Virus record (IMG/VR): IMGVR_UViG_3300042991_000632
Span: 91,036 to 148,025 of that record
Length of the DNA: 56,990 nucleotides
DNA from: a virus
Reading direction: 5' to 3' (one strand)
Every line of letters begins with the position of its first letter. Within the stretch, counting starts at the first letter, position 1. Below are positions 205 to 43,757 of this stretch, in pieces. Both the position numbers and the translations under genes were made by a program. A model generated the notes under the pieces. It did not search any database. It was not told where the DNA came from and was given only the letters and a program-made list of their open reading frames with translations.

Positions 205-3200
205 TTAGAACCCTCTGTTCTTTTTTACATTTTTCGTATCAACAAAGTTATTTGGTTTGTAACCAGTTAAATGTTTCATTTTTTCAAATTGCTCATTTAT
301 TACTGGTTTTGTTTTTAATGCAGCCTCGTTTAAGTTTTGAAGGGGTGATTTAAACCTGTAAACAGTAATGCCATCGGTGTAGAATTTATATTTGTTCAAT
401 ACTTTTGAAACACCTTCCATTATTTCACCCTTATTATCATAAACATTTCCGAGTCCACTTAGATTGATTTCTGAATATTTTTCAGAGTCTTCTTCATTTA
501 CAATTTCAAGAGTTTCATTTAATCTGAAATCAATCAAACATCTCTTACCAAGTGCGCTATAATATCTGCCACTAACAACCGATTCACCAATGCCATCTCT
601 TCTGTTCCACATTGATTTTTCTCTATTGAACTGATCTTTATCAACTTCAGTATCTTCAACTGGTTGTGGGTCTTTATTATACATAGGTGCTTCACTACGC
701 CATACAAGTTTTTTCTGTCTTTCGGCATATAATTTATCGCCCATGTCTGCTTTCATGCGATCTTCAAAACGCTTACCCGGTTCATTATCATAAACTAAAT
801 CTTGCTGACCAAGACGATGCATATCAACATCATTTTGTTCATCATCAGTGCGATTACGTTTAGGTATTTCGTCACCTTTATCGTTGGCTGAATCGCCAAC
901 ATTTTTCAATGCGTTGCCATCAGTTACTTTAAGAACTTTCTTTTCGATATCCTGACCTAATTTTTGTGGATCATCACCAACATCTGTCTGCTGATCTTTC
1001 CATTGAAGTTCTTTTTCAACATCAATGATTTCTTTAGTACCGCTATGTTGTAAATCTTTTTTGAAATTCTTTTCATTTTCTCCACCAAGACGGTCTTTCA
1101 TCACTAATGATGAGGGTTTTTTATCTTCTGCCATAACTTTTAATTTATTATGATGAATTGAAAATGCTTCCAATTCTTTATTTAATTCTTCTAAGAGTCC
1201 CATTTCATTATTATTTACATATAAATAGTCTCCATTTTTAATAAAATCTTCATTCATTCCGCCACTTGCTTGCATACCCATTGGTACACCACTTCCCTGT
1301 TCACCTGCTGGTGTTGGTTTGTTTGACATCGAAGTACCATTGTTTTGTATCATTGTTTGTGTATCTTCTTTAATTCTACCAAATATTTGTTTATATAATC
1401 CTTCAGCATATGCCCTTAATTTATGTGTAGATGCACTACTTAATTGTGTATTGACAAAATCAACATTATCATCTCTCATATCTGCTTCAATATTGGCTGT
1501 CATCATTATTGGATATTTTTGTCTTAAATAACCTAACATAAATTCCATCGGAGAAACTTTTATTGTTGAACTAAAAATACTCTCTTTTATGTTTGACGCA
1601 TTTAATTTATTTTGTTCGGGAGTCATAGTTAATTTTTCATCAACCTTTTCAGGTAAATCTTCATGTTTGGTTGATGCAAAATCTTCAACATCATCAGGAT
1701 TTACTGTTTTAGCAATCTTCTTAACAGCACCGCCAACTTTACTTGGACTCAATTCACCCTTTTGAACAGCATGCGCCATACCGAATAAACGTTGCTGTGC
1801 TTTTGATGTTGCTTTTTCATTAACCATTTCGTTTAATTGTCTACCATTTTCAAAACTTATAACGGTTTTATCAGCATCATACCAATCAGAAACAGCATAA
1901 TTATTATGGGAGATTTGGTTTACGTGTTGTGCTACACCCTCTTCCTTGCTGATTCTTTGTGCTTCTGCTTTTACTTTCTCAAGATTATTTTTTGATTGTG
2001 AATTTTCATCGAGATCGAAATTAAATGGCATATCTTCGTTTGAAATTCTATCATTAACTGCTTCTTTTACAGCAGCCATGAAATCTTCATATGTCATCCC
2101 ACCGTTTTCATCAATGTAGTCCCACATGGAATTTGTGTCGCTTAAATCATCCCAACCTAAACCAACTTTATTTGATATTAATTTGTTTGCAACACCAATC
2201 GCCATTTTATGTAAAACTTCCCCGGCAAATAACGGAACATCTTCTTTGGTCATATTTCTACCAACAGATTGTTTCCATGCCATAAATTGTTCTTTTGTCT
2301 TTATCTTGCCAACATTTGCTTGTTCTGCAACATTAAAATTAGGTCTGTCCATTTGACCAGTTTTTATGGTATCCATTTGAACTTTTTTATCGTTACCATT
2401 CCAACTTTTTACAGTATCACTACTGAACGCTGCTGTTTTATCAATAATTTCGTTATCCATATTCTCAGCAAATTTTTCAAACCCAGATGGGTCGGTTAAA
2501 TAATTGGTTTCAGCAATTATTGTTCCACCGGGAAATATTGGTTTTCTCATAACTTTAGATTTTCCTTTTGATTTCATTAAATCTCCGCTACCCCAAGCAG
2601 CAGGACCGGCATAACCAACATAACTTTGTGAACCAGCAGCACTTCCAGCAGATGTTGTTTCATCAACCTTTTTATCATATCCTAATGGAGCAGCATATCC
2701 AACATAACCTGCAGCACCACCAGCACCGCCAGCACTTGTGGTTTCATTTGCTTGATTAATAACATCAAGTTCATAACCAATTTGATTTTCAAGTTCTGCT
2801 TTAAGATCAGCATATTCTTCTGGTGTTGCGGGTCTACTTTCTTCAGCATATTCGGGATGACATGATGAATGTTGTCCTATATGTGAATAACAATCACGAT
2901 ATTCACCATTATGTATATTATCCGGGAAATACGCAAATAAATCTGGATTTTCCGGGTCTTTTTCGTTAACCAAAAATTGAACTTTTGTTACTTCTTCATT
3001 AAGTTGATTTGATTTTTTATCTTGTTTTGGCAAACCAGATGGATCAAGTTTTTTTGGTTTAAATGTTGGATTTGTTTTTTTCATGGTTTCTTCTCCCGCT
3101 TTTTTTGCTTGATTTATGCCACTTTTATCTCTTCTTTTCTTTTCTTTTGGAATTGCCATTTTATATTTCTGTAAATATTTTGGACTATTAAGGACATAAT

Positions 3201-3522
3201 CATTAAATATCATATTCATAATGGTTTCATTATAATGATAACCATATTTTTCTTCACCATTTACTGACATTTCATCATAAACGGCTCTTAATTTCGGATC
3301 GGCAAATACCAATGCTTCCATTTTTGGAAGACTAAATATTTTCTTTTTTAATGAAAATTCTGCTTCTGACAGCATACCATCGATTTCATTTAATCTAATA
3401 TTCGGTGCAACTTGCGGTGCTTGACGAAGCATAGTCTTTTTAAAATTTTTCTCAAAATTTTTAGACTGATCGTTAACAGGCTTTTTCACTGTCGGTTTAA
3501 ATATTTGTTCTTCTTTAATCAT
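205..3522 (-). CDS. Large conserved phage protein (1105 aa), polyvalent/virion-associated type
   Basis: No enzymatic domain is recognisable. The protein is hydrophilic and lysine/glutamate-rich. A Gly/Ala/Ser-rich segment (about 260-310) has two copies of an ETTSAG...YVGYA unit, followed by an IFPGG motif near 329-333. Similar low-complexity TTSA...PGG segments occur, from memory, in long proteins of marine T4-like phages. The tripeptide LNE occurs five times (44-46, 174-176, 563-565, 1001-1003, 1064-1066), which fits the T4 prohead protease site (L/I)-x-E. Residues 800-970 form a charged helical region. The ATG overlaps the TAA of the upstream 68-residue gene by one base, so it belongs to that transcription unit. 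Likely a virion or internal-head cargo polyprotein; function unknown. Confidence 0.7.
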   Translation of the reverse strand: MIKEEQIFKPTVKKPVNDQSKNFEKNFKKTMLRQAPQVAPNIRLNEIDGMLSEAEFSLKKKIFSLPKMEALVFADPKLRAVYDEMSVNGEEKYGYHYNETIMNMIFNDYVLNSPKYLQKYKMAIPKEKKRRDKSGINQAKKAGEETMKKTNPTFKPKKLDPSGLPKQDKKSNQLNEEVTKVQFLVNEKDPENPDLFAYFPDNIHNGEYRDCYSHIGQHSSCHPEYAEESRPATPEEYADLKAELENQIGYELDVINQANETTSAGGAGGAAGYVGYAAPLGYDKKVDETTSAGSAAGSQSYVGYAGPAAWGSGDLMKSKGKSKVMRKPIFPGGTIIAETNYLTDPSGFEKFAENMDNEIIDKTAAFSSDTVKSWNGNDKKVQMDTIKTGQMDRPNFNVAEQANVGKIKTKEQFMAWKQSVGRNMTKEDVPLFAGEVLHKMAIGVANKLISNKVGLGWDDLSDTNSMWDYIDENGGMTYEDFMAAVKEAVNDRISNEDMPFNFDLDENSQSKNNLEKVKAEAQRISKEEGVAQHVNQISHNNYAVSDWYDADKTVISFENGRQLNEMVNEKATSKAQQRLFGMAHAVQKGELSPSKVGGAVKKIAKTVNPDDVEDFASTKHEDLPEKVDEKLTMTPEQNKLNASNIKESIFSSTIKVSPMEFMLGYLRQKYPIMMTANIEADMRDDNVDFVNTQLSSASTHKLRAYAEGLYKQIFGRIKEDTQTMIQNNGTSMSNKPTPAGEQGSGVPMGMQASGGMNEDFIKNGDYLYVNNNEMGLLEELNKELEAFSIHHNKLKVMAEDKKPSSLVMKDRLGGENEKNFKKDLQHSGTKEIIDVEKELQWKDQQTDVGDDPQKLGQDIEKKVLKVTDGNALKNVGDSANDKGDEIPKRNRTDDEQNDVDMHRLGQQDLVYDNEPGKRFEDRMKADMGDKLYAERQKKLVWRSEAPMYNKDPQPVEDTEVDKDQFNREKSMWNRRDGIGESVVSGRYYSALGKRCLIDFRLNETLEIVNEEDSEKYSEINLSGLGNVYDNKGEIMEGVSKVLNKYKFYTDGITVYRFKSPLQNLNEAALKTKPVINEQFEKMKHLTGYKPNNFVDTKNVKKNRGF
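2596..2745 (-). repeat. Two-copy ETTSAG...YVGYA repeat inside the 1105-aa gene
   Basis: Residues 260-281 and 288-309 of the 1105-residue protein are near-copies: ETTSAG, a Gly/Ala/Ser stretch, then YVGYA and a P-x-(G/A) end. They look like a flexible linker duplicated in frame rather than a folded domain. Confidence 0.7.
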
Positions 3523-33697: not shown

Positions 33698-34531
33698 TTA
33701 TTTTAGTCCTTGAATTAATTTATCACCATATTTGATGCCGTCATAACCCATTTTCATTGCTTTTTCGGCAATTGCTTTATTTTTTAAATTTAACACATCA
33801 AGATTATATTTTTCCGCTAATTTTTCAAAATTAACATTTGGAAACCATATTTTTGCCATAATATCAACAGGTTGTTGACTGTCTTTATATGTAACGCCTA
33901 ATGCATTCGTATCAAGAAGATTTTCGAAATCAATTTGAAACTTGGAGAAACCATTTAATGGTTCTAATGTAAAGAAGTTTCCAACAACTGAATTTTCTTT
34001 TATCGGTTCTTTTCGATATGCAACAATTGATTGTGGATTTACGCTTGGCTTTTCGGATTGAACTTCAGCATTATCTTCTTCTAATGATGATAAAAATTCA
34101 CTTCTGTCAGTATAATTATTATTAATATCATTTTCATCATTAATAACATCATTGTTAACAATCTCTTCTACGTTATGTGCTTGTTCGTATTCAAAAATAT
34201 CTTCGATCTTATTTAATAATCTACAAGCATCTTTGTCACCCAAGTCAATTTTAATTGCTTTAATTGGTGTACCACTTTGCATTGCTTTGACCCATCTGTG
34301 ATGACCATCAAGAATTTTATTATCGTTACTAAGCCAAATTGGATTCATATCATCAAGACTTACACCTTCAACCTCATCAGAAAATGTTATCCCCTGTGAT
34401 GGTTCTAATTCGTTTGGATCAATCTCAATTAAATTATAATCCACTTCTTCCTCATCAAGTTTTTCCAATATAATATCATATGGTGCACTTATCTGTGGGA
34501 GAAAACGTGGTTTATATCTCATATCAATCAT
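33698..34531 (-). CDS. ParB-like plus ADP-ribosyltransferase-like polyvalent protein, 277 aa
   Basis: Residues about 37-105 resemble a ParB/sulfiredoxin-like domain: EIDPNELEPSQG, then IWLSNDNKILDGHHRWVKAM and PIKAIKIDLG, the DGHHR motif being typical. A charged linker follows. The C-terminal 60 residues (EKLAEKYNLDVLNLKNKAIAEKAMKMGYDGIKYGDKLIQG) match the end of ADP-ribosyltransferase-like domains found in phage polyvalent proteins, where 'GYDGIxY' is common. Such proteins are thought to be delivered with the DNA and to act on host targets. It has its own promoter motif and lies beside other polyvalent genes. The exact activities are inferred. Confidence 0.65.
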   Translation of the reverse strand: MIDMRYKPRFLPQISAPYDIILEKLDEEEVDYNLIEIDPNELEPSQGITFSDEVEGVSLDDMNPIWLSNDNKILDGHHRWVKAMQSGTPIKAIKIDLGDKDACRLLNKIEDIFEYEQAHNVEEIVNNDVINDENDINNNYTDRSEFLSSLEEDNAEVQSEKPSVNPQSIVAYRKEPIKENSVVGNFFTLEPLNGFSKFQIDFENLLDTNALGVTYKDSQQPVDIMAKIWFPNVNFEKLAEKYNLDVLNLKNKAIAEKAMKMGYDGIKYGDKLIQGLK

Positions 34532-34557: not shown

Positions 34558-35118
34558 TTAAATTATTTTTTGAATTTCATCACGAATAATGTCAATTAAT
34601 TTGAAATTTGATTCAACTAACGTTAATTTACCATTATTTGAATGATAAACATTAAATGTTATGTGTTCAGGAATCTGACTTTTAATTGTTTGGTATGCAA
34701 TTATATGTTCTTCCATGTCATCATAAACATTAATTTCGGTTATATCAGGAAATTGTTGAATATAATTTAAAATCTTTTGACCCTTATCTTTCCAATCATA
34801 TTTCATGTCAAGTTTATCAACATGAATGTTATTTTTATCTAAAACAGCCTGAACATATGGGCGTAACTTCTCCTGTCTGGATGTTAAAACAATAACATAA
34901 CTATCGGGTATTGACTGTTCTCTTTCTAATTGGTGTAATACAACCGGGAATGGTTTTATATCGAAAACATCCAAATCCAAACTTTCTGGTCTGCCCCACC
35001 AACCCTGATGTGGATATTGATATCCCATTTTATCCTGCCAAAACTGTTTTCCGTTTTCTTTTTCGGGAGAATTTATTAATGTACCATCAAAATCAAATGC
35101 TGCTAATCGTTTTATCAT
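34558..35118 (-). CDS. HAD-superfamily phosphatase, resembling RNA-repair-associated HAD proteins
   Basis: HAD motif I is RLAAFDFDGTLINSPEKE (nucleophile Asp in AFDFDGTL, about 8-15), motif II is YVIVLTSRQEKLRPY, and motif IV is VYDDMEEHIIAY. The cap is small, as in the 'Swiss Army Knife RNA repair' class of HAD phosphatases, although I am unsure of that class. The pairing with a 2H phosphoesterase and a CCA-adding enzyme supports a role in RNA end processing. The longest frame starts at 35133; the ATG at 35118 is just before the stop of the 2H gene and gives the standard MIKRLAAFDFDG start. Confidence 0.75.
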   Translation of the reverse strand: MIKRLAAFDFDGTLINSPEKENGKQFWQDKMGYQYPHQGWWGRPESLDLDVFDIKPFPVVLHQLEREQSIPDSYVIVLTSRQEKLRPYVQAVLDKNNIHVDKLDMKYDWKDKGQKILNYIQQFPDITEINVYDDMEEHIIAYQTIKSQIPEHITFNVYHSNNGKLTLVESNFKLIDIIRDEIQKII

Positions 35119-35119
35119 A

Positions 35120-35515
35120 TTATCTAAATTCAACTTCAGTTACTTTTCCTGTTAGTTTTAATGGAAACGGTATGGGTTTCCAGTCGGTTAATTGATTTGA
35201 CATTACTGGTTTACCGCCTTCAGCAGCATTTACCGCTAATGTAATATGTGGCTTTATGTTTACTGATTCATAACCATTAACACCAACAGCAATTACCTTA
35301 TCATTAATTGCATAATCCTCAACATTCAATACAATCTCACTACCATTTATCAAATCATTTTTCGCCTGAGATTCTGGATCAAGTGCACCTGTCATTATTG
35401 TCATATGATGTGCAAATATTTTCCAGCCTTCAGGTATCATTGACTTGAAAACCTTAACTAATTTCTGATGAGACTCATCATCAAGAATAACTGCACTATA
35501 TGAAATATCTGCCAT
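35120..35515 (-). CDS. 2H phosphoesterase-like protein, possible cyclic phosphodiesterase
   Basis: The two H-h-(T/S)-h signatures of the 2H superfamily are visible: HMTI at about residues 38-41 and HITL at about 90-93, with strands and helices of the right spacing. 2H enzymes open 2',3'-cyclic phosphates on RNA ends, including in tRNA repair. This 131-residue size equals a minimal domain. It is flanked by a HAD phosphatase (1-nt gap) and the giant polyvalent protein (1-base overlap, ATG inside the stop region), so the three are translated together. Activity and substrate are inferred. Confidence 0.6.
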   Translation of the reverse strand: MADISYSAVILDDESHQKLVKVFKSMIPEGWKIFAHHMTIMTGALDPESQAKNDLINGSEIVLNVEDYAINDKVIAVGVNGYESVNIKPHITLAVNAAEGGKPVMSNQLTDWKPIPFPLKLTGKVTEVEFR

Positions 35516-38500
35516 TAGAGTAATTTATTGTTTTCGTTTAACATTTGTGTATCGTTCACAAAAGTAGATAATTCTTTTTTATTATTCTGTAATTTATCGG
35601 AATATATTTTTAACAATAACATTTTTTTTATCTTACCAACTTCCTCACCCTTTGGAATGCCAAGATTAATAATATCATTACCATTAATTGCTAATTCATT
35701 AACAGTTTTGGGATATTTACCCGATAATAATTCTTGTGCAGCAACATCAATTACGTGTGGTAAAATCTTACTTTGAAGTGATTCAATATATTTAACATAC
35801 ATATTATGTGCTACCGATCTTGCTTCAATCTTTGTTGTTGCTTCACTACTATCATAAGCAATTTGCAATGCCTGTATTTCTTTATAAATTTTAGTTCCTG
35901 TCGCATCTTCTGTTGCAAATCTTTTTAAGAAATATTCTGCTGGGTTTGGAAATAAACGTATTAATAAAAATATAAATTCACCAATCGTATTAACATCTTC
36001 AAATGGACTCCTATCGATTACTGATTGGTTTAATTCCGTACCAAATATTTGAGTATAAAGTCCGGTATTTTTCAATAACTGTGCTCCAATCCTTGGCTCA
36101 CCCTTCTCAACGATTTTACCAAACTCTGTTAATATTCTATCGGCAGGTTCTTTTTTTATCATTTCAGCATTGTCAATAATCATTTGCATTGTCTTTGGTT
36201 CAATTGAGAAACCAAAACGACTTGAAAATTGAACAGCACGTAACATCCTTAATGGATCATCACTAAATGCTTCAGGATTAACAGCACGGATAATTTTATT
36301 CTTTAAATCTTCCTGACCGTTATATGGATCAATAATATTCCCATCAATATCTTTTGCAATTGCATTTATTGTAAAATCTCTGCGTTCCAAATCTTTTTCA
36401 ATTGGTAATGTATGATCTGAGGTTATTTTAAAATCCTTATGTCCACCACCACCTGTTGGTTTTTCTGTTCTTGGAACTGCAATGTCTATGCTTTCAGTTG
36501 AACCATCTGGTGTAAATATTATCACACTAAATGATTGACCCTCAATGCTTGCTCTACCATATTTTGATAATATATTTTTTAGTTCTTCAATTGGTATACC
36601 AGCAATAAGTAAATCCAAATCTTTTGATTCTTTACCTAAGAAACCATCACGTACAGCACCACCAACTGAATATATCTTACCGCCACGTTCTTCAACCTCT
36701 TTTTTGAACGGTAAATCGTCCAACGACATTAGTTGTGCTTCATTTAGATTATTTTTAATTAAAACAAGATAGCCACCATCACCATCTTCAGCAATAACAT
36801 CACCATTAAAATCAAATTCCTCAATATCCGAAAAATCGGATTCGTTTGAATATCTTTTAGCATCTTCAAATGTTTTTGTAACCCAAACAATACTTTTTGC
36901 CGGGTATTTATCGAGTTCTGCTAATTTTTCATCAGTAATGTGTGCGAAATCATCAGTGTTTTCCAATTCATCTCTTTCATGTCTGACAACATCACCTGCA
37001 GTTGTTCCACGTTCATGCCAAAATCCACTATCAACACGATATGCTTTTCCAGAATACGCTTCTTCATTCAAATTCCCACTATTTGGTAATCTATACATCA
37101 ACTGCATCGTTTTAAAATCTTTATTTTTTCCTTTGTTCATTACAAATCCCAGAGAACTATACCATGCCTTTAACTTAGGTACGCTTGCTCCCCAAACATT
37201 ATCGGGGGTCAAGGTAATAATTTTATTTTGTTTATCAGCATAATCAAACAATGATTTTATTGCATCATTAGCATATCCTTTACCTCTGAATGATTTATAA
37301 ATAAAAATTTTATCTAATGTAAGATATTCTTTATTTCGATTCATAATTTCGATCTCACCAACAACCTGACCATTATCCGTTATTTTATATGAACCCCAGC
37401 CACCCTGTATATCACTACTTGGTAAATCAACGGTTGTTGTTTCGTGCACCATGCTTTTAACGCCACCCAATAATTCATCATAATCTGTGTTTTGAAACAC
37501 TTCACTATATTCTTCATTGGGTTCATCGTATGCATCCAAACCAGTCATTTCATAAAATGCTCTTAATCTTTTTTTCATATCATCAGTAATTGTTACCTTA
37601 CCTTTGTATGTACCCTGCACTGGTCTTCTATATCTAACCTCTTTTAAATGAGCGAAGTCACCAATATCCCAATGTGAAATATCCACATCCGGTTTTTCTG
37701 AGATTTCATAAATATAAAATACTTCTGGATTTTTATTGTGTTGTAGGAACATTGAATATAATCCCATCACTGCACCACCAATGCTTTTACTTGCAGCAAC
37801 CTCTGGTTTATCACTAATCCAGAATGTATCGTATTTCCACACAGGACTACCGGAATCATCAATTGCCTCATAAAAACCTTCAGGTTCAAATTCTACGGTT
37901 TCACCCATGTTCTTTTCAACAGCACGATAATATTTTTGAGTATTTGCTACTTCACCCAATACAAATTTATTGTCGTCACTAACATTTGCAACATAATCTG
38001 ACCACATATCAGAATATATATTAACTGGAATTGTTGTTTCTTTATTAAGATATGCTTGAGCAACCCTATGATAACCATCTTCAACCAAAAATTTTTGTTT
38101 TTCTATGTTATAAAACACTAAAACTGGTTCATCAGTTTGAGAGGGTTTTCCTTGTTTAATATCCTGAATAGCACCAAAGATACCACGCTTACTTACGGTT
38201 AAATCTTTTAATGGAAAATCAGGAATTGATAACATTTCATCTTTTCCAACACCACGATTTAATTTATTATAATCAATTCCTTCACTTATTTTTTTTAATT
38301 CTAAATTATTAATATCGCCTTGATTGCATGCAACACTGGTATTACCCAATCCACCCAACCTGCATTTTTTCTTAACATTAACAGATTGTGCTCCGGGCAT
38401 ATATGATAACTTTCTTTCTGTCATCATATATTCATCATCAGTTGCATCACCAACGACATGATTATATTCTAAATCTTCATCAACGGGTGGCACATTATTG

Positions 38501-40959
38501 TCTGTCAACGGTGATGTATCATTTTGATTATATGTTGGAAATCCATCCTGACCTAAATCACTATCGGTTGAAAATTTCGATGATCCATCTTCAGCAACCA
38601 TAATTTCTTTTGCACCCACCGGATTTTGAAGTGCATTACCAAAACCAACATCAAAAAATCCTAATGCACCACTTTTCTTATATCCAAGATTTTCTTTATT
38701 TACGAAATCAATACTTTCAACACCATATTGTTGCAATTCTTCAGCAATTCTTATTAATCCATAGAAAAATTCAGAATCTTGTGAATTCTTTTTTAAATAT
38801 GCATCAATTTTTCGTTTATCAACAACACCATCACGCCACCAGCCAAGATAAAATTCGATTGCGTCTGGAATTGTAATATTTAATATTTTATTAAAAGCAA
38901 AATCTAATCTCGAATATTGTTGTGCAATACTTGGATCGGTATCAAGTTTTTCAAGTACAATTACATATGTTTCCGGTATTGTGTCATCAGATTTTGATTT
39001 AACTCTATAAACACCATATGGTTGTGCAATATATTTTAATTGCTTATCAATAAGTTTTAAGTTTTCAACGGCTTCTGTTTTATCTTTTGTTACTTTTAGT
39101 ATTTTATCATCACCAATATCATAAGCAACACCAAAATTACCACCAGCAATATATTTAGGCTGTTCATATCCAAGTTTATCGGCTACTTGCTGTGCAATTT
39201 TATCGGCAATTGTTTTATCATAAACTTCAATTAGGTTAGACATATTTTCTGGTAGAAATACCGTATTGCTATCATTAAAATATGGCTCTGTTGCGCTATA
39301 ACCGCCAACATCAAAATATTTTAATACACCATCCTTATATCCAAGATTTCTCGGTTCAACAATATAATCATGTGATTTAATTTCTAAACTAATCAGATCA
39401 TTTCTGATGTTTAATAAATCCATTATATATTTATACGCAAGTTTTCGATCATCCTCAGATACCTTGGCTTCTGGGTTATTGGTTAAAATCTTTTTTGCAA
39501 TTTCTGCGATTTGTTCTGATGTGTATTTTTTCTTAACAAAATAAAAAGCAAAATCACCAAAATTTAAACCGTCTGGTTTTATTTCTTCTATGATTTTTTC
39601 AAGTCTATAAAATTCCTGTGTTGGTTTATCGATAATATTTTCTTGTAATATTCCATAGAATGATGCATTATTATTTTCAGTATCAACAATTTTATATAAA
39701 CCAAACACATCTGCAATATGCATAGGATGTCCTCTCATCACTTTGGTTGCAGAATCCGCTTCACTAACATCAGATGTTATTTTAAAAACATTCTCACTAT
39801 CTAATTCATATGCATAACCAAAGCCACCAGAACCTAAAAATTTTGGTGTGTTTGGTGATAAATTTATTTTCTTAATAGTAGCATTTGCTAATTTTAATGC
39901 ATATTCAGGATTCAAATCATTGATACGTGAAAGTCCTGATCTTGAATTTGGTTTTGTTGTTTCGTCAATTTCACGTACTTCTTTTTGTAAAAGATCACGA
40001 TTGTACCAACCTTGCTCTACAAGATATTCCTGAAGAATTAGTAAATTATCATAAAATTTCTTTTTATTTGGAACACGTTCTAATGTTTCTTTAAGATTGT
40101 TTACACATTCATGAAACATATCAACAATATATGGCATGCTTGGTAACTTTCTTGTTGGATATTTATTCCTATTTAAAATAAATGAGATGAAACCTTCATT
40201 AACAACATCATTGCCATCGCCAACACCATAAGGTATTAATCCCCACATACCATGTCTAACCTCATCGCCACTTCCAATGTCTGAAAGTATATCGTCATTA
40301 CCATCATTAAAACCATAAAGTTCATATAGTTGATATTTATTTTGTTTTCTTTGTGGACTATAATATGTATCAAACACCTCATCATTTAAACCATAATCGG
40401 TTAAAACAATTATTGGTTGACCATCACGAAGAACTTCACCATATGAACTTGGTCTGTTCATATCCCCGGCAGATTGATCATGATTTGCTATGAAATTTTG
40501 TAACTCCTGTGCAAATTCGTTATCGTTTAATTTTTCGACAACACTTTGATCTTGTCCAAATATTGCCCTACGACCTTTATTACTATCAGAAAAATTTCTG
40601 AGATACATGTATAATTCGCTTAAATTTGGTATTTCGGTTAGTTGTATGATTCTTTTTTCATTAACCTTCTTACCCTTCTCAGCAATTATCCACGTGTAAT
40701 CATCAGCAGATTCAAATATTTTTGTGACAATACTATGATTATATGAATAATACCCAATATTTATTTCGGCTTCATTTTGAGCAACACCTTTTGCATTCTT
40801 AGCAACCTTAAAAACTTTAGTGCCGTCAATGTCATACACAACCCTGCCACTACCACTACCAATTCGTGTTAGATTATCATTGGCTGCATTTATTTTTCCC
40901 GAAAAAGATTTAATTTCTTCAAAATCATCCAGAAAGACTAAAAATTCATCGTATGTCAT
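35515..40959 (-). CDS. Giant polyvalent protein: three kinase-like domains, ParB, ART, GNAT and C-terminal CCA-adding enzyme
   Basis: 1814 residues with discrete modules. Kinase-like folds recur at about 34-210 (IGSGSGRVVYDI), 376-560 (LGSGGFGYAYEL) and 605-780 (AGGNFGVAYDIG), with TDYGL and FDVG-type DFG equivalents. A linker includes KKKCRLGG and CNQGDI (864-882). A ParB-like domain follows at about 905-990 (VEDGYHR), an ART-like domain at about 1008-1120, a GNAT acetyltransferase at about 1185-1285 (RGKGYAN), another ART-like piece at 1306-1400, and a class II CCA tRNA nucleotidyltransferase at 1409-1800 (GGAVRD, DLD, RRDFTINA, DDPLRMLRA). LNE tripeptides lie at 1297-1299, 1405-1407 and 1807-1809, bracketing the last two modules. 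Probably virion-delivered and cut. Confidence 0.8.
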   Translation of the reverse strand: MTYDEFLVFLDDFEEIKSFSGKINAANDNLTRIGSGSGRVVYDIDGTKVFKVAKNAKGVAQNEAEINIGYYSYNHSIVTKIFESADDYTWIIAEKGKKVNEKRIIQLTEIPNLSELYMYLRNFSDSNKGRRAIFGQDQSVVEKLNDNEFAQELQNFIANHDQSAGDMNRPSSYGEVLRDGQPIIVLTDYGLNDEVFDTYYSPQRKQNKYQLYELYGFNDGNDDILSDIGSGDEVRHGMWGLIPYGVGDGNDVVNEGFISFILNRNKYPTRKLPSMPYIVDMFHECVNNLKETLERVPNKKKFYDNLLILQEYLVEQGWYNRDLLQKEVREIDETTKPNSRSGLSRINDLNPEYALKLANATIKKINLSPNTPKFLGSGGFGYAYELDSENVFKITSDVSEADSATKVMRGHPMHIADVFGLYKIVDTENNNASFYGILQENIIDKPTQEFYRLEKIIEEIKPDGLNFGDFAFYFVKKKYTSEQIAEIAKKILTNNPEAKVSEDDRKLAYKYIMDLLNIRNDLISLEIKSHDYIVEPRNLGYKDGVLKYFDVGGYSATEPYFNDSNTVFLPENMSNLIEVYDKTIADKIAQQVADKLGYEQPKYIAGGNFGVAYDIGDDKILKVTKDKTEAVENLKLIDKQLKYIAQPYGVYRVKSKSDDTIPETYVIVLEKLDTDPSIAQQYSRLDFAFNKILNITIPDAIEFYLGWWRDGVVDKRKIDAYLKKNSQDSEFFYGLIRIAEELQQYGVESIDFVNKENLGYKKSGALGFFDVGFGNALQNPVGAKEIMVAEDGSSKFSTDSDLGQDGFPTYNQNDTSPLTDNNVPPVDEDLEYNHVVGDATDDEYMMTERKLSYMPGAQSVNVKKKCRLGGLGNTSVACNQGDINNLELKKISEGIDYNKLNRGVGKDEMLSIPDFPLKDLTVSKRGIFGAIQDIKQGKPSQTDEPVLVFYNIEKQKFLVEDGYHRVAQAYLNKETTIPVNIYSDMWSDYVANVSDDNKFVLGEVANTQKYYRAVEKNMGETVEFEPEGFYEAIDDSGSPVWKYDTFWISDKPEVAASKSIGGAVMGLYSMFLQHNKNPEVFYIYEISEKPDVDISHWDIGDFAHLKEVRYRRPVQGTYKGKVTITDDMKKRLRAFYEMTGLDAYDEPNEEYSEVFQNTDYDELLGGVKSMVHETTTVDLPSSDIQGGWGSYKITDNGQVVGEIEIMNRNKEYLTLDKIFIYKSFRGKGYANDAIKSLFDYADKQNKIITLTPDNVWGASVPKLKAWYSSLGFVMNKGKNKDFKTMQLMYRLPNSGNLNEEAYSGKAYRVDSGFWHERGTTAGDVVRHERDELENTDDFAHITDEKLAELDKYPAKSIVWVTKTFEDAKRYSNESDFSDIEEFDFNGDVIAEDGDGGYLVLIKNNLNEAQLMSLDDLPFKKEVEERGGKIYSVGGAVRDGFLGKESKDLDLLIAGIPIEELKNILSKYGRASIEGQSFSVIIFTPDGSTESIDIAVPRTEKPTGGGGHKDFKITSDHTLPIEKDLERRDFTINAIAKDIDGNIIDPYNGQEDLKNKIIRAVNPEAFSDDPLRMLRAVQFSSRFGFSIEPKTMQMIIDNAEMIKKEPADRILTEFGKIVEKGEPRIGAQLLKNTGLYTQIFGTELNQSVIDRSPFEDVNTIGEFIFLLIRLFPNPAEYFLKRFATEDATGTKIYKEIQALQIAYDSSEATTKIEARSVAHNMYVKYIESLQSKILPHVIDVAAQELLSGKYPKTVNELAINGNDIINLGIPKGEEVGKIKKMLLLKIYSDKLQNNKKELSTFVNDTQMLNENNKLL

Positions 40960-40999: not shown

Positions 41000-41024
41000 A
41001 AAAAAAGCGCAACTATTGTTGCGC
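41000..41024 (-). terminator. Intrinsic terminator overlapping a gene end
   Basis: 7-bp stem GCGCAAC (arms 41007-41013 and 41018-41024), 4-nt loop, then TTTTTT on the minus strand. It overlaps the last codons and stop of the gene at 41013-41693. Confidence 0.7.
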
Positions 41025-41693
41025 CTTATTTTGCTTTGATTTTGCTTGAATCTCTCGAATTGTTTCGATAACGATTGTTCGAATAAGGTCTTTATTTTCA
41101 GTAAGTACCGATTTGATCCTATCAACAGCATACATTTCAAGTATGGTATCCTTGATTGCTTCTTCGAATATTGGACTCAGGCTTTCTGCCAAATAATTAT
41201 TAACAATTTTCTTCACATTTTCAGTGAGATACTGTTCATTTAAATTCATTGGTTGTGCTGGTGGTTGATTTTTCATTGGAGCACCAACTGCTGGCATTTT
41301 AGAAAACTCTGACATTGATTCAGTCAATGTTTGTTTTCTTTTTGACTCCATGTCACGATATAACTGTTCATCCCTTTCGGGCGACATGTCAACATCTTGT
41401 GCTGGCATTGGAATATGACCACGTTGTGGTTGTGCGACAGGTGTTTCATTAATACGCATTCTTAGACTTTCGCCTTTCTTTTCAGCCACCCTACCGTCAA
41501 CAACTTTAACCAAACTTGTTGCTGCGTTTTCTTTTCCGGTTCTTAGTGATTCAAGTAATCCATTTAAAAAAACATCTCTTGGTGCGACACCAGCACCAAC
41601 TGACTCTCCTAACGGAGATTGAGTCATGTTTCTTTCTCTTTTACGACTATCAATTTCGGTTTTTAATTTATTTAAATCGACACTTTTTGCCAT
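41013..41693 (-). CDS. Conserved phage protein, 226 aa, unknown
   Basis: An N-terminal helical part VDLNKLKTEIDSRKRERN, a VAPRDVFLNGLLESLRTGKEN segment, a Pro-rich linker, then an LNE at 151-153 (NLNEQYLTENV) and a C-terminal helical domain VKKIVNNYLAESLSPIFEEA...DTILEMYAVDRIKSVL. I recall near-identical organisation in other T4-like phages, without known function. The LNE between linker and C-terminal domain resembles a processing site, so a prohead-core or packaged role is possible. The gene has a promoter motif 22 nt upstream and a terminator at its end, forming a single-gene unit. Confidence 0.65.
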   Translation of the reverse strand: MAKSVDLNKLKTEIDSRKRERNMTQSPLGESVGAGVAPRDVFLNGLLESLRTGKENAATSLVKVVDGRVAEKKGESLRMRINETPVAQPQRGHIPMPAQDVDMSPERDEQLYRDMESKRKQTLTESMSEFSKMPAVGAPMKNQPPAQPMNLNEQYLTENVKKIVNNYLAESLSPIFEEAIKDTILEMYAVDRIKSVLTENKDLIRTIVIETIREIQAKSKQNKAQQ

Positions 41694-41728: not shown

Positions 41729-42688
41729 TTATTTGAAAAAAGTCTTTCTTTCAACAGGAGTATTTGATAAATTATCTTTTGGAAGTTTACTTTTTAAATT
41801 ATTTTTTGTTTTATCAACAAATCTTCTCATTTCAATATCGCTTGATATTGGTGGTCGAACCATTTTATCATACAATGACATTAAATTTCCAACAAAAACT
41901 TCTTTGGGATATTTGTCTTTCTGACTAATATGTATTGTTCTGAAATTACCATTTCTATCGATGGCAACCATATAATCATTTGGCGATTTTTTCTTTTGTT
42001 TTCGTATCAAATCATATAAGCCACCAACAGTATCTTTTGTGATTTTTTTATTTTGTTTGGTAACATTATGAAAATCTCTGAATTTTTTTGCTTGTGATGC
42101 GAATGTTGATTTATCAACCTTTTGTGCTATTTTATCAGGTTCGTTAACTGAATCAGTTCCCTTAACCATCATTTCCTTTTCTTTTGATATTGAAACATGT
42201 GCAATCGCTGTTGGTATAAACTTATCTTCCTCACTATATTTGGGTGGTATGTCTACTTTTCCATCTTTATCAACAAATCGTTGACCGTTACCAATTGGCA
42301 ATACCTCAGTGATGTTATTAACTAAAAATAATCTCCATCCCGGCTTATTACCCCAATACTCATGTTCTGATCTGCGTCTTCCTTTTTTATCACCCCATTT
42401 ATAAGAATCACTATCACCCTTTTCTTGCCACGCCCTGAGTGCTAATTCACCGTTATGATTCTCAATTGGATTACCTTTTTTATCAGTTGTTTTCGTTTGT
42501 AACAAGCCTAAACGCATAGGTCTGACTGTTCGATATCCTTTTGAAATTGTCTCATCACCAGCATAATAGATATAGATATACTGATAGTTATTGATTGCAT
42601 CCACAAGTCGCTTATCAACAACACTTTCAGTTATAAGATAACGAAAAGTATCAATATTATCACGCAATATTTTAGTTTCTGATTGCAT
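41729..42688 (-). CDS. WYL-like domain protein, 319 aa
   Basis: The segment at about 28-135 resembles the WYL ligand-binding fold: AINNYQYIYIYYAGDETISK, RTVRPMRLGLL, LALRAWQEKG and WRLFLVNNITEVLP. WYL domains bind nucleic acids or nucleotides and often sit in regulators. No helix-turn-helix is seen. The second half is charged (KKFRDFHNVTKQNKKITKD; MVAIDRNGNFRTIHISQKD) and unfamiliar. It might sense nucleotides or single-stranded nucleic acid. Its ATG overlaps the end of the 79-residue gene by one base. The assignment is by pattern. Confidence 0.5.
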   Translation of the reverse strand: MQSETKILRDNIDTFRYLITESVVDKRLVDAINNYQYIYIYYAGDETISKGYRTVRPMRLGLLQTKTTDKKGNPIENHNGELALRAWQEKGDSDSYKWGDKKGRRRSEHEYWGNKPGWRLFLVNNITEVLPIGNGQRFVDKDGKVDIPPKYSEEDKFIPTAIAHVSISKEKEMMVKGTDSVNEPDKIAQKVDKSTFASQAKKFRDFHNVTKQNKKITKDTVGGLYDLIRKQKKKSPNDYMVAIDRNGNFRTIHISQKDKYPKEVFVGNLMSLYDKMVRPPISSDIEMRRFVDKTKNNLKSKLPKDNLSNTPVERKTFFK

Positions 42689-42968: not shown

Positions 42969-43757
42969 CTACTTATCATAATTTTTAAATGCAAGTGTTA
43001 TATATTCCATAAGATGCGGAACAGTATTTAAAAATCTAATCTCTTCAACATTAAACCAACCATAATTGGTGTTTTCTTCATTTAATGTTATTTCCGTAGG
43101 TTCACCATCATATCTGCATGCAAATATGTGTTCAATGCTATCTGGGTTTTTTTGGATTGCGAATGTTTTAATAAATTTATCAATCTCCAATCCAATTTCT
43201 TCAGTAATTTCTCTTTTAACTGCTTTTTCAGGTGTTTCACCCTTTTCAATACCACCGCCAACTAACGCCCATTTGCTTGGTTGCCATATCTTCGGATCAT
43301 CCGATCTTTTTAATAATAAAAATTTATTATCGGCATTAACAATTATAGCAACAGCATTTTTTGTTAATTCTTTCTTCTCTTTTTTTTCTTCGTTTAATTC
43401 CGGTGATGCATCGTATGGTCTTGTTCCAAGATTAACATTAACGTTAGCATCTCTATTTACTTCCTGTGATCTTTCAACGGATGCTCTTTCTGAATTCAAT
43501 TTACTATCAACAAAAGATTTCATTAAATTACCACCAGCAAGTTCATACTGTGCCTTGTTACCAGTTTGCATGTTAAACGTATCAAAGAAATGTTTTAATC
43601 CCTTTAATTCCTGATAACTTAAAACACCATTTTTAACGATGAATTTTGCCCTTTTAACGCCCTCACCTGTTGGATTGGATACCAGTACCGCTTGGACATA
43701 TTTAATCACGTCTGGGGGCACGCTATACGTTTTATTGTATAATTCTGAGTTAGCCAT
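42969..43757 (-). CDS. Nudix hydrolase with separate N-terminal leader domain
   Basis: The Nudix box at 168-190 is complete: G-x5-E-x7-REITEEIGL. The Nudix domain starts near 132 (NAVAIIVNADNKFLLLKR). Residues 1-90 form a separate domain (VLVSNPTGEGVKRAKFIVKN, LKHFFDTFNMQT) that I recall as a recurring N-terminal piece in phage proteins. The LNE at 121-123 lies exactly between linker and enzyme, consistent with a cut that would release a free hydrolase. Nudix enzymes cleave NDP-x compounds, mRNA caps or NAD-related molecules; the substrate here is unknown. The gene overlaps the next by 8 bases. Confidence 0.8.
   Translation of the reverse strand: MANSELYNKTYSVPPDVIKYVQAVLVSNPTGEGVKRAKFIVKNGVLSYQELKGLKHFFDTFNMQTGNKAQYELAGGNLMKSFVDSKLNSERASVERSQEVNRDANVNVNLGTRPYDASPELNEEKKEKKELTKNAVAIIVNADNKFLLLKRSDDPKIWQPSKWALVGGGIEKGETPEKAVKREITEEIGLEIDKFIKTFAIQKNPDSIEHIFACRYDGEPTEITLNEENTNYGWFNVEEIRFLNTVPHLMEYITLAFKNYDK

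Follow-up and report, generated by a model that had tools for sequence, protein, structure and literature searches.

The closest described counterparts of the protein analyzed here are the polyvalent proteins, large multi-domain proteins that are delivered with DNA and whose modules are swapped between relatives; kinase domains have been reported in those of Bacteroidetes phages (PMC5512222). In phage T4, cleavage by gp21 follows the motif L/I-X-E, and Alt, an ADP-ribosyltransferase (ART), is processed and ejected (PMC9026906). A jumbo-phage RNA-repair toolkit brings a CCA-adding enzyme, Thg1, an RNA ligase, a 2H phosphoesterase and a HAD phosphatase together in one phage (PMC7824862), and the E. 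coli CCA enzyme, according to Yakunin 2004 as cited in PMC10673834, couples CCA synthesis to 2',3'-cyclic phosphodiesterase and phosphatase activity by means of an HD domain. The subject of this analysis is an open reading frame (ORF) of 1814 residues in a stretch of 56,990 nucleotides (the window) that covers bases 91036-148025 of the 148025-base virus record IMGVR_UViG_3300042991_000632. On a slight balance of probability, this ORF encodes a modular precursor of T4-type internal head proteins that would be cut into tRNA-repair and host-modifying enzymes.

A sequence-only reading of the same DNA had likened the protein to the polyvalent proteins and regarded a CCA-adding module as unusual among them. 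Both views are upheld: at least two effector-type domains stand in one large phage protein, the modules (kinase, GNAT, and possibly ART and ParB) are of the kinds found in polyvalent proteins, those in the middle are swapped between relatives, the kinases recall the domains of the Bacteroidetes phages, and 'CCA' is absent from the main text of the survey (PMC5512222). A further difference is that a metallopeptidase module was not found in the window protein, which has prohead-protease-type motifs at its borders instead. With Alt and the other internal proteins of T4 it shares the L/I-X-E motif and a role, in its case inferred, as a head-carried host-modifying enzyme, whereas their sites belong to terminal propeptides and the window chain has several internal borders (PMC9026906). 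The enzymes of the jumbo-phage toolkit are encoded by the phage as such (PMC7824862), whereas here the CCA enzyme, alone or together with 2H, belongs to a polyvalent chain. Compared with the E. coli-type enzyme as described in PMC10673834, CCA synthesis would again be joined to 2',3'-cyclic phosphodiesterase and phosphatase activity, with an unrelated 2H enzyme and a separate HAD enzyme in place of the HD domain.

Organization of the fusion ORF

The plus strand across 35515-40959 is full of stops, and it is the minus strand that is open (40959→35515). The sequence-only reading gave the right coordinates and length but overlooked the strand. The modules are as follows.

35515..40959, minus strand: fusion ORF, 1814 aa, KIN1-KIN2-KIN3-linker-ParB?-ART1?-GNAT-ART2?-CCA
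40060..40959, minus strand: KIN1, protein-kinase-fold repeat 1, residues 1-300 (K51, E65, D166, D188)
39274..39912, minus strand: KIN2, residues 350-562 (K393, E400, D531, N538, D550)
38590..39237, minus strand: KIN3, residues 575-790 (motifs ILKVTKD, SIDF, ENLGY, GFFDVG)
38260..38592, minus strand: linker, residues 790-900, with 791-855 predicted disordered, followed by a conserved CRLGGLGNTSVACNQGDI motif
37951..38280, minus strand: weak ParB/Srx-like module, residues 894-1003 (PHROG 17560)
37444..37938, minus strand: ART1-like module, residues 1008-1172 (candidate R-S-E pattern YYRAVE / FWIS / KEVRY)
37081..37401, minus strand: GNAT module, residues 1187-1293
36748..37062, minus strand: ART2-like module, residues 1300-1404
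35542..36717, minus strand: predicted class II CCA-adding enzyme (tRNA nucleotidyltransferase), residues 1415-1806, from profiles and motifs

Relatives were collected from IMG/VR scans and with a custom module search. Among 46 non-redundant CCA-bearing ORFs, 31 are joined to KIN or to the linker; KIN1 and CCA occur within a single frame in 27 non-redundant ORFs, on contigs that reach about 325 kb or more. The constant core consists of one to three kinase repeats, the linker and CCA, between which ART1, GNAT and ART2 are gained, lost and reordered. An assembly chimera or a random read-through fusion, a concern that the sequence-only reading had itself raised, is ruled out by the same module order in many independent contigs; no point in its support was found and its probability is negligible.

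Prohead-protease-type motifs at the module borders

The new observation is that a motif of the prohead-protease type marks the module borders across the family. Four candidate sites lie in the window protein (↓, candidate cut).

38416..38424, minus strand: MTE↓ in the linker, E848, candidate prohead-protease site
37063..37071, minus strand: LNE↓ at the GNAT/ART2 border, E1299
36739..36747, minus strand: LNE↓ at the ART2/CCA border, E1407
35533..35541, minus strand: LNE↓ after CCA, E1809, five residues from the end

In addition, VLGE precedes ART1 and MVHE precedes GNAT, and relatives with a CCA-2H fusion carry a motif similar to that at E1809 at the CCA/2H joint. When 28-residue border windows were compared with random windows drawn from the whole of the same proteins, [LIMV]xE was present at 71 of the 72 family junctions (about 34 expected) and the strict form [LIM][NT]E at 36 of the 72 (about 7 expected). 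Strict motifs number 211 in the linkers, compared with 69±7.5 after shuffling, and in 110 large control ORFs there is hardly any excess (1.92 vs 1.74 motifs per 1000 residues). The three nearest upstream gene families, with 44-45 homologues each, are also enriched in [LIM][NT]E, with z-scores of 16.8, 12.1 and 9.1 that are inflated by the relatedness of the homologues to one another.

41013..41693, minus strand: 226-aa protein, possibly of the prohead core/scaffold type, in which [LIM][NT]E occurs five times
41729..42688, minus strand: 319-aa protein of an [LIM][NT]E-enriched family
42969..43757, minus strand: NUDIX hydrolase with an N-terminal extension, of an [LIM][NT]E-enriched family

On the same measure, the DNA polymerase (z 0.3), HAD (0.6), ParB-like (-1.8) and glycosyltransferase (-2.3) families are not enriched. 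A gp21-type protease (PF03420) is encoded in 11 of 26 related records. The capsid protein of the relatives is of the gp23 type, and its N-terminus reads YMINE↓SSD near the position of the T4 propeptide (by eye, from an alignment).

The resemblance of the module borders to capsid-maturation protease sites makes a packaged and cut precursor probable. The precursor would enter the prohead, a gp21-type protease would cleave it after [LIMV]xE and thus free separate enzymes, and these would be injected along with the DNA; delivery with DNA, as for polyvalent proteins, is in this case suggested by the border motifs. The kinase and GNAT modules, and possibly the ART-like ones, would then modify proteins of the host in the manner of T4 Alt. 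The more specific proposal, that a head-packaged polyprotein is cut by the protease at every border and brings in, along with the DNA, tRNA 3'-end repair (CCA addition and removal of cyclic phosphates) and host-modifying enzymes, which would protect translation ahead of phage gene expression, falls a little short of an even chance. If true, a single gene ties capsid proteolysis to phage counter-defence, tRNA repair begins at injection, and the T4-type protease serves as the release step for a multi-enzyme cargo, beyond scaffold and propeptides. LxE at borders would then be a signature with which injected cargo modules can be predicted in uncultivated jumbo phages.

Several points weigh against a packaged and cut precursor. 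Packaging and cutting are both deduced from the border motifs, and [LIMV]xE by itself is common; some [LIM][NT]E motifs fall within folded domains (E109, E1612); and the motif counts overstate significance because the homologues are not independent. A gp21-type protease was not found in the 148-kb record itself, so that the protease is known only from relatives. The family scores of HAD and 2H are modest. Covalent linkage is not essential, since CCA and KIN are separate ORFs in some relatives, and the gene sits close to those for DNA polymerase and the baseplate, outside the capsid cluster of the relatives. The last two points are also what would be expected of an unpackaged and uncut intracellular multi-enzyme, in which the fusion co-locates tRNA-end repair with translation-modifying enzymes and the [LIM][NT]E linkers are flexible spacers; that CCA, 2H and HAD serve one pathway (PMC7824862) is likewise compatible with it. 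However, such spacers leave unaccounted for both the restriction of the enrichment to the linkers and three neighbouring genes, with the DNA polymerase and downstream genes lacking it, and the likeness of the border motif to the end of a phage capsid propeptide, and this explanation is considered unlikely, if not to be dismissed.

In relatives that encode KIN and CCA as separate ORFs, the gap between the two falls at a module border and frequently contains another ORF. The separate CCA ORFs possess their own start and mostly begin without the border motif, and the upstream KIN ORFs frequently retain a remnant of the junction at their end, such as MNEAQ or NINEAK. Most of the longer gaps contain ORFs, some of which resemble homing endonucleases by eye; in L005, L007, L043, L044 and L078 such ORFs are situated exactly at the module border. 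Group I or II introns joining the split ORFs were rejected, as Rfam gave no match in nine loci and the window. TAG recoding across the gene was likewise rejected, an internal TAG between modules being absent in the loci checked. ARAGORN assigned one tRNA-Pyl label per tRNA cluster in L121, L123, L125 and L126, possibly a CUA suppressor.

Kinase, middle and CCA-adding modules

In the predicted model, residues 1-790 form three repeats of the protein-kinase fold, and the catalytic residues are conserved. The model shows three well-folded kinase domains (mean pLDDT 77), and the top 50 PDB matches by fold, which comprise aminoglycoside and methylthioribose kinases as well as protein kinases, without exception have the protein-kinase/APH fold. 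The repeats carry the Gly loop, Lys, Glu, catalytic Asp and DxG Asp, and K51, E65, D166 and D188 of repeat 1 are invariant across 28 sequences. In a search of PDB sequences, a KIN profile found a single, weak match to a kinase (0.004). The kinase-like module proposed from sequence is thus substantiated, as three repeats. A CRLGGLGNTSVACNQGDINNL motif in the linker is strongly conserved despite much predicted disorder around it.

At least seven modules had been claimed for the protein, of which the kinase-like, GNAT and CCA modules stand, ParB is weak and the two ART modules are not confirmed as such. For the ParB-like module, PHROG 17560, a family of unknown function, matches at 1.2e-5 and a DGYHR-type motif is visible by eye, whereas Pfam gave no match over residues 894-1003; one relative (L109) has a PF02195 match at 2e-4, below the cut-off, in its own middle region. 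The ART1-like module is conserved in L003, L065 and L109 and the ART2-like module in six non-redundant proteins, but Pfam and PHROG searches of both were without meaningful match, and no ART appears among the listed fold matches of the middle region, whose model is of low confidence. The structure of this region was predicted poorly (pLDDT 58), which leaves the ART and ParB assignments tentative. The GNAT module matches Pfam at the 1e-5 level, with one model, PF00583, over the cut-off, and Foldseek retrieves GNAT structures with E-values down to 6e-5; profile and fold therefore agree with the earlier assignment. Its nearest homologues are the GNATs of phage proteins annotated as DarB-like/PLxRFG.

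Profiles and motifs identify the C-terminal 390 residues, as had been proposed, as a class II CCA-adding enzyme that is complete in length and has intact motifs. Pfam identifies PolyA_pol (1.4e-22) and PolyA_pol_RNAbd (3.9e-13), PHROG 2244 'tRNA nucleotidyltransferase' matches at 1.8e-63, and PDB CCA enzymes match at 2.9e-29; the NF009814 match (4.9e-53, profile positions 13-393 of 396) is below that model's equivalog cut-off. GGAVRD (1433), DLD (1447-1449), RRDFTINA (1526) and, at the EDxxR position, DDPLR (1567) are present. This templating motif is EDALR in the PDB homologue; nearly all relatives with a readable motif are like the window protein. Neck, body and tail are full-length, the tail match being weaker. 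CCA rather than poly(A) addition is predicted, as the best family models are those for CCA and not PcnB.

The RNA-repair neighbourhood

The sequence-only reading had left out the triple kinase and the border motifs, as well as two genes downstream of the ORF, a 2H enzyme that is often fused to it in relatives and a HAD phosphatase.

35120..35515, minus strand: putative 2H (cyclic) phosphoesterase with two HxT motifs, HMT and HIT
34558..35133, minus strand: putative HAD phosphatase of the Swiss-Army-Knife/polynucleotide-3'-phosphatase type (PF10307, PHROG 415)
33698..34531, minus strand: conserved ParB-like (DGHHRW) protein (PHROG 2859, unknown function)

The 2H gene directly follows the fusion ORF, with which it shares one base. 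Its product matches PF08302 at 2.7e-4, below the cut-off, and is 55-65% identical to its homologues, among them those that relatives carry as a fusion to CCA; a 2H phosphoesterase follows CCA in frame in 21 of the 46 CCA ORFs. The HAD protein matches PF10307 at 3.8e-5, just below the cut-off, and PHROG 415 'polynucleotide kinase' at 1.3e-6. The DGHHRW gene is found at the same place in relatives, and a Pfam search of its product was without meaningful match.

The 148-kb record also has genes for Thg1 (1.1e-26) and an RNA ligase (1.1e-14), together with those for a HAD_SAK_2 phosphatase (1.9e-23) and a small protein of PHROG 3668 ('hydrolase'). Among the 26 related records, which include the 148-kb record, Thg1 is present in 11 and an RNA-ligase match in 14 (13 over the cut-off); in 8 of the 11 Thg1 records the two lie within about 3 kb of each other, one of these ligase matches being weak. 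Thg1, RNA ligase and 2H/HAD/CCA form an RNA/tRNA-repair kit, with the same members as the jumbo-phage toolkit (PMC7824862). From the enzyme families, we infer a healing chain in which 2H would open 2',3'-cyclic phosphates, HAD would strip the phosphate and the CCA enzyme would rebuild CCA, which would render acceptor ends chargeable at once, while RNA ligase and Thg1 would mend other breaks. The tRNAs served would be those of the host that defence nucleases have cut or trimmed, together with the phage's own, most of whose genes are without CCA.

That the CCA module chiefly matures the phage's own CCA-less tRNAs, with damage repair being secondary, is a tentative alternative that deserves some credence. 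Several relatives have 19-53 tRNA matches, and of the 202 tRNA genes read in seven tRNA-rich relatives only 12 have a 3' CCA, which is absent in the other 190. However, the enzyme is kept in relatives with 0-3 tRNA matches and in the 148-kb record, where no tRNA genes were found, although these may be fragments, and both the fusion to 2H and the linkage to HAD point to end healing.

A different 2H-like module follows CCA in other relatives (as in L041, 8141-8947). It is similar to Acb1 (1.9e-6, above the cut-off) and 2'-5' RNA ligase (3.9e-6), in keeping with the idea that 2H and the other small modules counter nucleotide-signal immunity, e.g., CBASS, rather than heal tRNA. The 2H enzyme of the window, however, is closest to the cyclic phosphodiesterase domain of fungal tRNA ligase (2.7e-4), and the adjoining gene encodes an RNA-repair-type HAD phosphatase, which leaves a role in immunity rather improbable.

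Genomic setting and possible further multi-module proteins

The surroundings of the ORF are T4-like, with DNA polymerase and DNA helicase upstream and baseplate wedge genes downstream, and its source is a large T4-type phage, probably of Bacteroidota. The 148025-base record is apparently a fragment, as it has neither a gp21-type protease match nor tRNA genes. A search of the GenBank collection found the KIN/CCA fusion in no phage record, and a KIN search of the genome collection gave a single match, on one contig of a Bacteroidota metagenome-assembled genome.

In a 1105-aa protein at 205-3522 of the window, possibly a second processed multi-module protein, [LIM][NT]E occurs seven times (1.8 expected). 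In another large protein, of 1192 aa, in L015 (5185-8763), an ART-PolyVal domain scores above the Pfam cut-off (1.2e-8) and the N-terminal part carries a LINE↓ motif. In five related records (G004, G016, G019, G022 and G023), the prohead protease match is in two parts, about 0.8-1.2 kb apart, that share one open ORF of 598-653 aa, which suggests an intein or a large in-frame insert. An intein-like insert is also seen in the 832-aa helicase ORF of L139 (4730-7228; about 495 aa in relatives), where it begins directly after the P-loop GCGK with CLGIDTSILMYDG.

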